Positions 22,517 through 52,879 of a DNA stretch of 52,879 bases are shown piece by piece (position 1 is the stretch's first letter; each line of letters begins with the position of its first letter). The stretch is taken from NCBI GenBank assembly GCA_022561635.1, contig JADFQV010000011.1:1-52879 (forward strand), in the 5' to 3' direction. The position numbers were made by a program, and so were the translations under genes. The notes below the pieces were generated by a model, which saw nothing but the letters and a program-made list of their open reading frames with translations, was not told the origin of the DNA and did no database searches. The stretch comes from Chloroflexota bacterium (lineage in GTDB: Bacteria > Chloroflexota > Dehalococcoidia > SM23-28-2 > RBG-16-64-32).

Positions 22517-22702
22517 TTAGAAACGGCCGGACGGGGAGTTGAAGCCCCGGAACGTGACCTGTTGGGTGACCGATCGGCGAGTGATCGAGAGGTCGATCAC
22601 TTCGCTGCGAACCTGGTTCGTTGACTGGGACTTGCCGTCGTGCTTAATGATGGCTGTCTTTGTCGGGTTGCCTTTCGGCTTGTGGCGAAACAGGTTCAGC
22701 AT
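22517..22702 (-). CDS. 61-aa hypothetical protein with C-terminal FRGFNSPSGRF motif
   Basis: Start MLNLFRHKPKGNPT with AAGGGAC RBS-like sequence; followed by terminator; C-term resembles that of the 942-aa protein at 40349-43177. Confidence 0.75.
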   Translation of the reverse strand: MLNLFRHKPKGNPTKTAIIKHDGKSQSTNQVRSEVIDLSITRRSVTQQVTFRGFNSPSGRF

Positions 22703-40348: not shown

Positions 40349-43177
40349 TTAGAAGCGGCCCGGCGGAGAGTCGAAGCTAGCGAACGGGCCTTTCTTGGCG
40401 GTGAAGCGGCCAGACTCGCGGAAGCGCCAAGTCTCGATAGCGGCAGCCGTCTCCTCGGCCGTGAGCCCCTCGTCGAGGGTATTCGACGTCGCAGCGGCAG
40501 CCTGTTCGGCGACCGTCCCTTTAGTGGGGGCCCTTGGAGCTGACTTGGGCTTGCCGTGACCGGCCTTGACCTTGGCCGGCTTCGCTGCGCCCTTCACGTT
40601 TGTGCTCTCTTTCGCTGACTCCGGCTTGGTGTTCTTCGCCACCGGCGCGGCAGGCGCTGACACGGTCGCGCCCGTGGCGGCCTCGACGGCCTGCTCGGCG
40701 GCCTCACTGGCGGCGGAGGCGACCTCTGGGCCCTTCGCCTTGCGGATAGCCGCGGTCACGGCCTTCATCGTCTTGTCGTCCAGGCCAGCCTGGGCGATGC
40801 GCACCTGGGCCTCCGCCACAGTGGCCTCGTTGAGCGCCAGCGCGGCGTTGTTCCAGGCCCGGCTCGCGGCGATCTCCCTGAGCCTGATCGGCACCGCCGT
40901 GGCGATGGCGACGGCGAAGGCGTTCCAGATGACGACGCTGCGATCGTGGCACACCTTCGCGGCGATGGCGTCTCCGAAGGCGACGGCGACAGCGTCCCAG
41001 GCGGCGATCGCGACGTCGCGGCGCTGACTTGCAGCGGCGGCCTCGGTAAGGGCCGTCGTCAGCCGCAGCCATGCCTGGCGGTAGGCCATCTGACGGACGA
41101 GGCAAGCCTGCGCAGCGTTCAGGCAGGCCCTTGCGATGTTGCGCCAGGCCCGAAGGAGCTTCTTCTGTTCGAGGTTGACGAGGGCGCCGTCGGCGAGTGC
41201 GAGCGTAAGGCTGTGCCAGGCGGCAAGCGCCCTGTTGTGACGCATCTGGGCGTCGGCGGAGTCGTGCAGCGCGCTGGCCGCGGCCTGCCAGGCGGCGACC
41301 ATGCGGTCGTGGTGGACTTTCGCGGCGGCGCCGGCGGACAGCGCTTCGGAGGCGTTTGCCCAGGCCCTGGCCGCGGTATCGCGCCGGACCTGCATGTCGG
41401 CGACGACGAGCATCTCAAGCGCCAGTACACGCCAGGCGCGGGCGAGCCCGTCGCGACGCGCGGTGGCGTCGACTGCTTCACCGATGGCGGCAGCGAGCCG
41501 AGCCCAGGCAGCGACGAGCCCATCGTGGTTAAGTTTGGCCGCGGTGTACTCGTCTAGTGCGATGCTGATGTTGGCCCAGGCAACGACGCTCCGCTCGTGA
41601 CGGAACGTGGCGACGGTGGCCTCGGCAAGGCATCTGCCGATCGAAGACCAGGCGAAGGCGAGTCCGGCGCGGCGGGCCTCGTGGGCCTTAGCGGCGTCGA
41701 GAGAGGCGACGGCCAGGCGCTGCCATGCCGTGCGCATTCCGCGATCGATGGCGTCCTGCGCGATGGCGGCGAGCGATACGGCGCTAGTGGCCGTGGACCA
41801 GGCCTGTTCGGCGATCTTTTTATCCTGCAGCCGCGCCGCGTAGACGCCTTCCTCGAGCGTCCAGGAGATGTTGGCCCAGGCCCGGCGCATGGCGCGGCGG
41901 CCAGACTTGCTCTCGGCGGCCTGGCGGAAGGAGAGGGCGATATTGCGCCAGGCTGTGGCGAGGCCGCGCTTACGCGCTGCCTGTATCGCCGCCCCGGCGT
42001 AGAGGGCCTCGCTGATTGCCCGCCAGGCCATGAGCAGGCGAACGCTGGCAGCGGCGGCGAGAGCGGTGGTGAGGCGGCGCCAGGCGATGGTGGCGCTGAC
42101 GCGGCGAGCGACGTGGGCGTCGATCGCACTGTCGATCGCGGCGCCGATGTTCGACCAGGCGGCGATGATGCCGCTTGCGGTCTCGTCCGATGCTTCGATC
42201 AGAGCTTCAGGCGCGGCGTGAAAGCCGTTGGTTGTGGGGCCTTCGGGGCTCCGCCGGAAGTCTGAGAGGGTGGTTAGCGTTTCCGGGTCGCGCCTGCCGC
42301 CAAAGACGTCGCCAAGGTTGACGTGCACTGTCTCGTGAGCGGCGTTTGCGGCGCCGTTTCCAGCGTCTGAGGGTACATCCGCTGGCTCGGCAGCGTCCTC
42401 CGGCAGGTCCGGCTCGCCGGCCGGCTGCGGCGAGTGCGATGCGGCGCGCAGGCCCTTCGCCTCGAGGATGTCGATGACGTTAGAGGTATCCGCGTCGTCG
42501 ATCGCCTTGTGTGCCGCTTCCTCGGCGGCTTCCGGCTTGTCGGCGGCCTGTGGCTCGTCGGAAACGAACTCCGGCGGACGGACGGGCGGCGTCTCGACGA
42601 TGTGCGTTTGGCTCGCGGTAGTCTCGTCGTGATCGGGCGCTGCGAGCGGTGAGGGCGCAGTAAGGGGTGCATCGCCATTCGCGGCGGGCTCGCGCGCGGG
42701 CGCCTTGCTGGGGCTGACGGTGATCTCGCCCCAATGGTTGGCCGTCGCCTCAGCGGGCACGGCCCAGAAGATGGCCGTCTGGTTCAGGTCGAGGCCGGCC
42801 TTCATCTCGTGCCGGACGAAGTCGTAGGCGGAGTCGAGATCGACGAATGAGAAGGTGTAGACGACTCCCGGGCGGCTGGGGTCGCGGATGAGGACGACCG
42901 GCTCTGCTTCAACGTCCCGGTGGCCGTTGTCCGACGGCCGCCAGGTGAGGGCCCAGAACATGATGGTGCCTTCCTGAACGTCGCCGCGGAGGATCGAGAC
43001 GAGGTACGCCTCGGCGTCACTGGCGGCGATGAAGGTGTGCTGCTGATAGGTGGCGATGCCTGAGGCGTCCGGCATCAGCATCATCAGATTTGCGGTCGTT
43101 GGCTGGACCGGCATGGTGGCGACAGCCGGTTCCTTATCACTCCCTTTGCGGGAGAAGAGATTCCTTACTATGCCCAT
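40349..43177 (-). CDS. 942-aa protein: N-terminal duplicated alpha/beta domain, linker, 19 Trp-anchored ~24-aa helical repeats, C-terminal FASFDSPPGRF motif
   Basis: Repeat consensus AWxxhxxALxxAxxAxxxRRxxhhx seen directly; repeat Trp codons at ~72-nt spacing from 42160 down to 40853. Confidence 0.9.
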   Translation of the reverse strand: MGIVRNLFSRKGSDKEPAVATMPVQPTTANLMMLMPDASGIATYQQHTFIAASDAEAYLVSILRGDVQEGTIMFWALTWRPSDNGHRDVEAEPVVLIRDPSRPGVVYTFSFVDLDSAYDFVRHEMKAGLDLNQTAIFWAVPAEATANHWGEITVSPSKAPAREPAANGDAPLTAPSPLAAPDHDETTASQTHIVETPPVRPPEFVSDEPQAADKPEAAEEAAHKAIDDADTSNVIDILEAKGLRAASHSPQPAGEPDLPEDAAEPADVPSDAGNGAANAAHETVHVNLGDVFGGRRDPETLTTLSDFRRSPEGPTTNGFHAAPEALIEASDETASGIIAAWSNIGAAIDSAIDAHVARRVSATIAWRRLTTALAAAASVRLLMAWRAISEALYAGAAIQAARKRGLATAWRNIALSFRQAAESKSGRRAMRRAWANISWTLEEGVYAARLQDKKIAEQAWSTATSAVSLAAIAQDAIDRGMRTAWQRLAVASLDAAKAHEARRAGLAFAWSSIGRCLAEATVATFRHERSVVAWANISIALDEYTAAKLNHDGLVAAWARLAAAIGEAVDATARRDGLARAWRVLALEMLVVADMQVRRDTAARAWANASEALSAGAAAKVHHDRMVAAWQAAASALHDSADAQMRHNRALAAWHSLTLALADGALVNLEQKKLLRAWRNIARACLNAAQACLVRQMAYRQAWLRLTTALTEAAAASQRRDVAIAAWDAVAVAFGDAIAAKVCHDRSVVIWNAFAVAIATAVPIRLREIAASRAWNNAALALNEATVAEAQVRIAQAGLDDKTMKAVTAAIRKAKGPEVASAASEAAEQAVEAATGATVSAPAAPVAKNTKPESAKESTNVKGAAKPAKVKAGHGKPKSAPRAPTKGTVAEQAAAATSNTLDEGLTAEETAAAIETWRFRESGRFTAKKGPFASFDSPPGRF

Positions 43178-43262
43178 CGACTAACCCTCCTGTGAGCCCT
43201 GCCCCGAGTTGTGTGCGGTGGCACGAACTGCGTGTTACAGGCACAAGTGTCTGATCGGCGGG

Positions 43263-44398: not shown

Positions 44399-45136
44399 AT
44401 GTCATTCTTCACAGAAGCCTCGCTCCCGCGAAAGGCAGTTCTCGTGCTGGGTGGGCTGGCCTTCTTCGTCGGCCTGGGCCTGATCGCGGTCGCCGGGCTG
44501 TCAGCTTTCAGCGGTGAGAGCGAGCCCAACGTCGAGCTGCGGGACCTGGGCGAGGTGCCGATCGTCGTCCCGAGCGACACGCCGACGTCGGCGCCAGTCA
44601 CCGAGACGCCAGCGCCGACGCCTGTGCCCGAGCCGCTGCTGGAACAGGGCTCGTACCAGATGATCATCGACGCGCTGGGCGTCAACGCGCAGGTGAACAC
44701 TTACGGCCTGGACCCGAACGCCGTGCCGGAGGTGCCGACGGGGCCGGGGGCAGCCGATGTCGTGGCCTGGTACAACTTCTCGGCAGAGCCGGGCACGGGG
44801 AGCAACGCCGTGTTTGCGGGGCATGTGACGTGGTTCGGCAACGCCGTGTTCCGGAATCTCGAAGCGATGGCGAACGGTGACGAGATCAGGCTGCTGGGAG
44901 CGGACGGGACGCAGCTCACATACGTGGTGAGCGATGTCTTCAAGGTGGATGCGAACGACCCCGAATCGCTGCAAGTGATGCGCGCGACGGACGAGGACGT
45001 GATCACGATCATCACTTGCAACGGCACCTTCGTCGACACGGGCGACCCGGTCTACGGTGGAGAGTACCCGCTCCGGCTCGTTGTGCGGGCTGCGCTGGCA
45101 GAGACCTTGCCGGGCGCGGTCAGCGCCGGCGGCTGA
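44399..45136 (+). CDS. Sortase (class D/E/F-like)
   Basis: VFAGHVTWFGNAVFRNLEAMANGDEIRL; VITIITCNGTF (TxxC). Confidence 0.9.
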   Translation: MSFFTEASLPRKAVLVLGGLAFFVGLGLIAVAGLSAFSGESEPNVELRDLGEVPIVVPSDTPTSAPVTETPAPTPVPEPLLEQGSYQMIIDALGVNAQVNTYGLDPNAVPEVPTGPGAADVVAWYNFSAEPGTGSNAVFAGHVTWFGNAVFRNLEAMANGDEIRLLGADGTQLTYVVSDVFKVDANDPESLQVMRATDEDVITIITCNGTFVDTGDPVYGGEYPLRLVVRAALAETLPGAVSAGG

Positions 45137-45212: not shown

Positions 45213-45902
45213 ATGCCGTCACAACGCACCCCATCCCGCTATAAGTACACCGGCAAGCGACGCCTGTACGTGATACTGTCGTCGCTGTTTCTGCTCGCCG
45301 GTTTCGGGATGATCGGCGTGGCCACGTATGAGTTCGCCTACCAGGGGAACGACCCGACACAGCTGATCTGGGTGCGACCCGGCGAGCCGGTAGCGCCGGC
45401 GACCGCAGACGGAAGCCAATCGCCACCGCAGGCGCAAACCGTCGGCACCGAGCCCTTTCGGCTGGTGATCGACAAGATCGGCGTTGATGCGCCGGTATCC
45501 ATGTTCGGACTGGACACGAACGCCTTGCCGCTTGTGCCGTACGACGCTGACCTCGTGGCGTGGTACAACTTCTCCTCCTATCCGGGCGACGGAGATAATG
45601 CGGTGTTTGCCGGGCACGTGACGTGGAACGGCGACGCGGTGTTCAAGCGGTTGGGCGAGCTAGGGAACGGCGACCGCATTCGCATCCAGCGCGAGGACGG
45701 CAGCAACCTGATCTATGAGGTGACGGAGGTCGTGCTGATAGAGCCGGGCGACCCGACGGCGCTGGACTGGATGCGACCCGCCGGTGAGGACGTGGTGACG
45801 CTGATCACCTGCGGCGGCCAGAGATTTCTGACGGATGACATCGTCGGTGCCGACTATACGCACCGGCAGATCATCCGCGGGCGTTTGATAGCGGCTGCGT
45901 GA
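45213..45902 (+). CDS. Sortase (class D/E/F-like), paralogue
   Basis: VFAGHVTWNGDAVFKRLGELGNGDRIRI; VVTLITCGGQRF. Confidence 0.9.
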   Translation: MPSQRTPSRYKYTGKRRLYVILSSLFLLAGFGMIGVATYEFAYQGNDPTQLIWVRPGEPVAPATADGSQSPPQAQTVGTEPFRLVIDKIGVDAPVSMFGLDTNALPLVPYDADLVAWYNFSSYPGDGDNAVFAGHVTWNGDAVFKRLGELGNGDRIRIQREDGSNLIYEVTEVVLIEPGDPTALDWMRPAGEDVVTLITCGGQRFLTDDIVGADYTHRQIIRGRLIAAA

Positions 45903-51974: not shown

Positions 51975-52879
51975 TTAGAGGGAGCGGTGGGAAAACCAGT
52001 CGGCCATGCGCGGCCAGAGGCGGAACATGGCGTTCTTGCCGGCGACGAGGCTGACGTGACCGCCCTTGAGGACAATGTCTTCGGTGTCTTCGCTGCCGAC
52101 GATGCTGGTGAGGGGCCTGGTGGCGGCGAAGGGGGCGATGTGGTCGTGCTCGGCCATGGCGTGAAGGACGGGGATTTTGACGGCCTTGGTGTCGACGGGC
52201 CGGCCGTTGAGGGTCATGGTGCCCTTCATCAGCTTGTTCTCCCACATCAGGTCTTTGGTGAACTGGCGATAGGCCTCGCCGGGGAAGGGGATCTGTTCGT
52301 TGGTCCACTTATACATGATGCGGAAGCCGTTGACGAACTGCTCGTTCCAGAGGTTGTCGAGGAGGCGAATGTAGCCGCCCCAGCGGTCCATCGGACGCAG
52401 CATCTCGAACGAGCGGAGCATCATGTCCGGCGGGATGTTGCCGATTGAGTCGACGAGGTGATCGACGTCGAAGTAGCGCCTGTCGGTCCACTTGCGGAAG
52501 AGGCCCATGCCTTCCATGTCGACTGGCGTGGCGGCGCAGGCGAGGTTCTTGAGCGGGGCGTCCGGGTAGGCGCCGGCGTACATGAGGCCGAAGATGCCGC
52601 CCATGCAGTAACCGAGAATGCTGTAGTCCTCCTCGCCGGTGGCCTTCTGGACGTGCTCGAAGCAGTCGGGCATGAGATCCGTGACGTAGTCCTCGAAGCC
52701 GAGCTTCGTGTCCTCGGGACGGGGAACACCCCAGTCGATCATGAAGACGTCGAAGCCCTGAGCGAGCAGGTACTGGACGAAGCTCTGGCCGAAGGTAAGG
52801 TCGAGGATCCAGGGCTTGCTGACGAGGGACATGACGAGGACGATCGGCACGCGGTAGACTTCGTCGGACATTGGGTGGT
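51975..52879 (-). CDS. PHA-synthase (PhaC)-like alpha/beta hydrolase (N-terminus runs off window)
   Basis: VPIVLVMSLVSKPWILDLTFGQSFVQYLLAQGFDVFMIDWGVP; SILGYCMGGIFGLMYA (GxCxGG lipase box); HVSLVAG. Confidence 0.88.
   Translation of the reverse strand, partial: HPMSDEVYRVPIVLVMSLVSKPWILDLTFGQSFVQYLLAQGFDVFMIDWGVPRPEDTKLGFEDYVTDLMPDCFEHVQKATGEEDYSILGYCMGGIFGLMYAGAYPDAPLKNLACAATPVDMEGMGLFRKWTDRRYFDVDHLVDSIGNIPPDMMLRSFEMLRPMDRWGGYIRLLDNLWNEQFVNGFRIMYKWTNEQIPFPGEAYRQFTKDLMWENKLMKGTMTLNGRPVDTKAVKIPVLHAMAEHDHIAPFAATRPLTSIVGSEDTEDIVLKGGHVSLVAGKNAMFRLWPRMADWFSHRSL

Follow-up and report, generated by a model that had tools for sequence, protein, structure and literature searches.

Leucine-rich repeat variant (LRV) proteins are built from all-helical units of 24 amino acids that contain proline and are anchored by leucine. 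Single-alpha-helix and coiled-coil segments, for their part, serve as spacers between functional ends. Tethers of the SepF and FtsA type carry an amphipathic helix at the N- or C-terminus and work by recognising a conserved C-terminal peptide (PMC8187382). Here we analyse a 942-aa protein that shares features with all of these, encoded in a window of 52,879 nt (the whole stretch of DNA analysed), read on the forward strand of contig JADFQV010000011.1 of a Chloroflexota bacterium (GCA_022561635.1).

The gene lies on the minus strand at 40349..43177. The earlier call of its strand, length and start was correct, and a strong ribosome-binding site, the Shine-Dalgarno-like AGGAGG (43186..43191, minus strand), stands 8 nt 5′ of the ATG. 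An orthologue shows GC contents of 0.67/0.54/0.83 at codon positions 1/2/3. Two orthologues, L073 and L074, are 78% and 65% identical to the protein, whose overall dN/dS is 0.30. The gene is flanked by an S58 peptidase gene and mutM; the surrounding genes are housekeeping and offer no functional hint. Two tandem sortase genes (44399-45136 and 45213-45902, plus strand) are found beside gltX and the S58 peptidase gene, and the sortase-S58 neighbourhood is seen again in other genera of the GTDB family.

The Trp repeat array (40787..42160, minus strand) consists of 19 units of 24-25 aa (one of 19 and one of 26), 18 of which start with AW and one with IW. The successive Trp spacings (25, 19, 25, 24, 5+21, 25, 25, seven times 24, 25, 24, 24, 24) confirm the arrangement described in the earlier note, and reveal in unit 5 an extra Trp, W439, absent from it. 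Our count of 16 Trp gaps of 23-27 aa compares with a best of 9 in 100,000 shuffles of the region, and the periodicity is hence far beyond chance. With Trp left out, self-identity of the array is 0.21 at lag 24 versus about 0.11 at other lags, showing that the units are homologous beyond their Trp. The 24-aa unit follows the consensus A-W-x-x-[LIA]-A-x-A-[LIF]-x-[ED]-A-A-x-A-[KTQ]-[LV]-[RN]-[HR]-D-[RGA]-[AL]-[VLA]-x, and the array as a whole is Ala-rich and amphipathic, with 3.3% Gly and a single Pro in 460 residues. Tandem Repeats Finder does not detect the array in the DNA, where the units are too diverged.

That this period fits no repeat family one could name, as had been claimed, was borne out. 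Pfam holds no family for the whole protein (E<=1) or for the array alone (E<=0.1), and at these same thresholds its LRV, HEAT, TPR, Sfi1 and GvpC profiles leave the array unmatched. NCBIfam gave no match to the Trp repeat or to any other part of the protein, a two-unit repeat profile matched none of the PDB sequences, and literature searches turned up no helical repeat of 24 residues anchored by Trp. The repeat could thus be placed in no characterised family by any of these searches, and the array is a real, previously unlisted 24-residue Trp-anchored helical repeat. Homologues with the same period were then sought with the two-unit profile across 396 genomes of the class. They are confined to the genus, three of whose four genomes carry the array gene; the fourth is 76% complete and split into about 340 contigs. 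Two marginal matches outside the genus (G029 and G297, E about 0.009) are regarded as noise, one lying in a frame with two stops and both lacking context.

The protein that hosts the array belongs to a new lineage-restricted protein family within one Dehalococcoidia family. When 41 genomes were searched with the whole protein, every relative proved to belong to the same GTDB family; those outside the genus resemble the two ends of the protein and not the array. The genomes of this family are metagenome bins labelled Chloroflexi or Dehalococcoidia, their soil type being inferred from isolate names. Profiles of the two ends, an N-terminal domain (N-domain) and a C-terminal peptide (the tag), both match the gene in the window. 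At the same locus in other genera, the gene between the S58 peptidase gene and mutM (L075, L076, L135) encodes an N-domain and a tag joined by disordered or acidic linkers, with no Trp array. Since orthologues elsewhere possess both ends without it, the array most likely arose within the genus as the spacer of an older protein, as judged from these sequence comparisons. A second paralogue, located between a PPOX-like gene and purA, occurs in the same genus and in G009, and other paralogues have a Glu/Arg/Ala-rich helix at the spacer position. In a third paralogue (L020:1312-3003, plus strand; L141:6428-7882, minus strand) the Ala/Glu/Lys repeat (AEAKAKAEAEA) is very long and extends beyond the contig ends.

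The protein begins with a hydrophobic and basic segment, MGIVRNLFSRKG (43142..43177, minus strand), that is membrane-targeting-like. Segments of this kind are more amphipathic, hydrophobic and basic than those of 22 other proteins of the window used as controls, with an amphipathic moment of 0.42 versus 0.23 and a charge of +3.3 versus -0.1 (Mann-Whitney, p about 1e-5 each, for family members that are homologous and so not independent samples). A hydrophobic-basic amphipathic start is present in all tagged N-domain proteins with a visible start and in most of the mini-proteins described below. Its character fits surface association and suggests a possible membrane role. The N-domain follows (aa ~29-161; 42695..43093, minus strand), delimited by alignment, profile search and AlphaFold2, which predicts two consecutive beta-beta-alpha-beta units, at a pLDDT of about 90 across most of this region. 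Fold searches against PDB and viral models gave nothing at E<=0.001 for this domain, Pfam and NCBIfam gave no match, and a SepF domain is not recognised by sequence. The sole match in a PDB sequence search, a nanobody at E 0.046, was taken as chance. The N-domain occurs in 14 of the 396 class genomes, all within the GTDB family, and in none of 398 genomes drawn from the rest of the phylum. Two stretches frame the array: an acidic, Pro/Ala-rich and probably disordered linker with a net charge of about -25 (aa 167-339; 42161..42679, minus strand) and, 3′ of the array, an Ala/Lys/Pro-rich segment (aa ~799-905; 40463..40783, minus strand) that is mostly missing in L073.

The tag, ESGRFTAKKGPFASFDSPPGRF (40352..40417, minus strand), has the consensus LxxRRWxxRxxPFxGFxSPPGRF and ends at the free C-terminus. 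Its profile finds 14 of the 15 family genomes at E<=0.5, strongly in 12, and most of these genomes encode two to four clear tagged proteins each. Some are mini-proteins that consist of little besides the tag. One of them, of 61 aa (MLNLFRHKPKG...FRGFNSPSGRF), is encoded in the window at 22517..22702 on the minus strand, between a thiolase gene and pan genes, and joins a basic N-terminus to the tag; its orthologues in other genera adjoin thiolase and panD. Next to mutM in two genomes (L137, L138), the gene of a tagged N-domain protein directly neighbours that of a tagged mini-protein, which suggests that both proteins are functionally linked. Outside the family but within the class, strict-level matches to the tag come from one contig only, that of a genome of another family (G255), where a tagged C-terminus is found beside mutM (L164:1-279, plus strand). 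This contig is probably mis-binned, its mutM being 84% identical to that of genus g2. Pattern matches in G016 and G027 were discarded, as their frames end in TGG with no stop. The tag was also compared with the tail of FtsZ, which in these genomes ends DTDLPTFLRRPASIR (DTDLPTFLRR) and is unlike it.

Our preferred reading, held tentatively and at somewhat less than even confidence, is that the protein works as a tether at the membrane surface: its C-terminal peptide would dock on a partner, and the Trp array would be an extended helical spacer. This reading stems from the amphipathic N-terminus, the nearly invariant C-terminal peptide and the replacement of the latter in paralogues. Indeed, L017 and L134 carry a receiver-ParA/MinD-type ATPase at the C-terminus in place of the tag, and the N-domain relative L034 (2378-3826, plus strand) has a match to the Yip1 membrane domain. 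Such swaps would follow if it is the C-terminal part that determines what is linked to the N-terminal part. The full architecture of L134 (1000-3435, minus strand) is an N-domain, an acidic repetitive linker, a receiver and a ParA/MinD/CpaE-type ATPase, with no tag; L036, L037 and L029 are, like L034, N-domain relatives with a multi-spanning C-terminal domain instead of the tag. As a tether, the protein would be a cytoplasmic adaptor of a Dehalococcoidia-lineage family. Its N-terminal segment would attach it to the inner membrane surface or to another lipid-like surface, its free C-terminal peptide would dock on a partner common to all tagged proteins, and the spacer would set the distance between both ends. 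In this genus the spacer would comprise 19 amphipathic helices, each of ~18 residues and with its Trp on the hydrophobic side; by packing on each other or on further copies of the protein, they may build up an extended rod or scaffold of helices.

The tether has to be weighed against other readings of the array. One of them takes it as neutral filler, a lineage-specific expansion of the linker by unit duplication with no function beyond length. The array is missing at the same locus in other genera and unit number varies between sister species, as this reading would have it, but the array is under purifying selection. Against the closest orthologue its dN/dS is 0.31, the same as that of the folded N-domain (0.30), with 0.12 over the last 37 residues of the protein. 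At a Ks of about 0.4 none of the 24 aligned Trp has changed, and filler is on these values improbable. Between the two closest species compared, the L073 array is shorter by exactly one 24-aa unit, and the sister species L074 has lost about two thirds of its units in frame, a strong loss that could mean that the array is dispensable and that also speaks against the tether. The earlier note had seen structural selection in the repeat: dN/dS and the retention of every Trp agree with it, and the losses in L074 and the repeat-less locus in other genera qualify it and identify the array as a genus-level spacer rather than a conserved core. Gain and loss of units with the tag and the frame preserved is, moreover, as expected of a spacer.

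Two further readings concern how the units fold. Amphipathy peaks in 18-residue windows starting at unit positions 20-21, so that each unit probably, on its sequence pattern, folds as a single amphipathic helix; Trp would lie on its hydrophobic side, and positions 16-21 would serve as a polar/basic hinge. Within a unit the best hydrophobic period is 3.72 residues, and the pattern resets at each unit. Over the whole array, hydrophobicity power is 0.41 at period 3.5 versus 16.4 at 4.02, the latter being a harmonic of the 24-aa unit. Of the long helices that had been anticipated, the helical character looks right by composition, and their length is doubtful, as the pattern resets and has no heptad component over the array. 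For the same reason, the absence of a continuous heptad stripe, a long parallel coiled coil dimerising the protein is very unlikely, in spite of the near lack of Pro and Gly, of a mean Trp spacing near 24.5 (seven turns at 3.5 residues) and of the Glu/Arg/Ala-rich helix that other paralogues have at the same place. An alpha-solenoid, in which the stacked units would make up a superhelix with a specific protein, peptide or nucleic acid as its ligand, is also unlikely. It would account for the regular spacing of the 24/25-aa units and for a contiguous unit face (positions 1, 4, 5, 8, 9 and 12, with Trp 2) showing the strongest conservation between species (permutation p 0.03). AlphaFold2 runs on the array of three orthologues yielded no usable model (pLDDT 38), and contribute only that helix breaks recur at unit position about 12-17, which a solenoid would also explain. 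On the other hand, a unit of 24 residues leaves little room for two helices, HEAT, TPR, LRV and similar families are without a Pfam match at E<=1, and in L074 the number of units collapses with the frame kept.

The last alternative, suggested in the earlier note as a phasin-like role, is a granule coat, in which amphipathic Trp units lie flat on polyhydroxyalkanoate (PHA) granules or lipid droplets in the manner of phasins and perilipins. The repeat is Ala-rich and amphipathic, PHA synthase is present in 15 of 15 family genomes, and it is encoded about 9 kb from the gene both in the window and in G002. The copy in the window (51975-52871, minus strand) is class III-like and cut by the contig end. 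However, no phasin model of Pfam or NCBIfam (PF05597, PF09361, TIGR01841, TIGR01985) matches the protein, and the PHA loci of five relatives carry a phasin-like protein of their own (a weak match to TIGR01985, E 5e-5) together with a PhaR/PhaE-like subunit. Furthermore, four more distant genomes (G018, G026, G032, G039) have PHA synthase without the tagged family, and array-less orthologues sit in equally PHA-positive genomes. Since the lineage's PHA loci have their own phasin-like protein and PHA synthase occurs without the tagged family, a phasin role is made less likely, and we hold a granule coat to be quite improbable. Besides the PhaR-like subunit and the phasin-like gene, the PHA loci of relatives include a PadR-type regulator. 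The wider idea of a membrane- or granule-associated scaffold consequently survives in part: the family-wide hydrophobic-basic amphipathic N-terminus fits association with a surface, and the phasin-like role is the part left unsupported.

A broader form of the tether, which we put forward as a rather unlikely possibility, is that several membrane-surface proteins per cell dock through the common C-terminal peptide on one hub, the array being a new Trp-stacked single-helix rod of adjustable length. If the tether reading holds, the array is a helical repeat that is new, has a very short unit and arose within one genus; its birth, growth and loss can be traced from one sister species to the next, and the simplicity of the units would suit protein design. 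A short single-helix Trp unit would be unusual to repeat-protein specialists. The common peptide, in turn, would indicate that the tagged proteins of this uncultured soil lineage share a docking partner, and the tag would be a short, testable handle on the cell organisation of bacteria unstudied by cell biology.

Compared with known systems, the array has a 24-residue helical period in common with LRV, and differs from it in having no Pfam match at E<=1 and almost no Pro. With phasins the protein shares Ala-rich amphipathic helices in a PHA-producing lineage, and is set apart from them by the separate phasin-like protein at the PHA locus and the lack of a model match. Like single-alpha-helix and coiled-coil spacers, the array is a long helical spacer low in Pro, and paralogues have Glu/Arg/Ala-rich helices at its place; in contrast to them, it is hydrophobic-amphipathic and strictly periodic at 24-25 residues rather than charge-alternating. 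Pfam does not recognise the N-domain as SepF, and the tag differs from the tail of FtsZ. The order of parts, a predicted amphipathic stretch at the N-terminus and then a small alpha/beta domain, in a system with a conserved C-terminal peptide, would resemble tethers of the SepF and FtsA type, with the difference that here the membrane-targeting-like segment and the C-terminal peptide are carried by one and the same protein.
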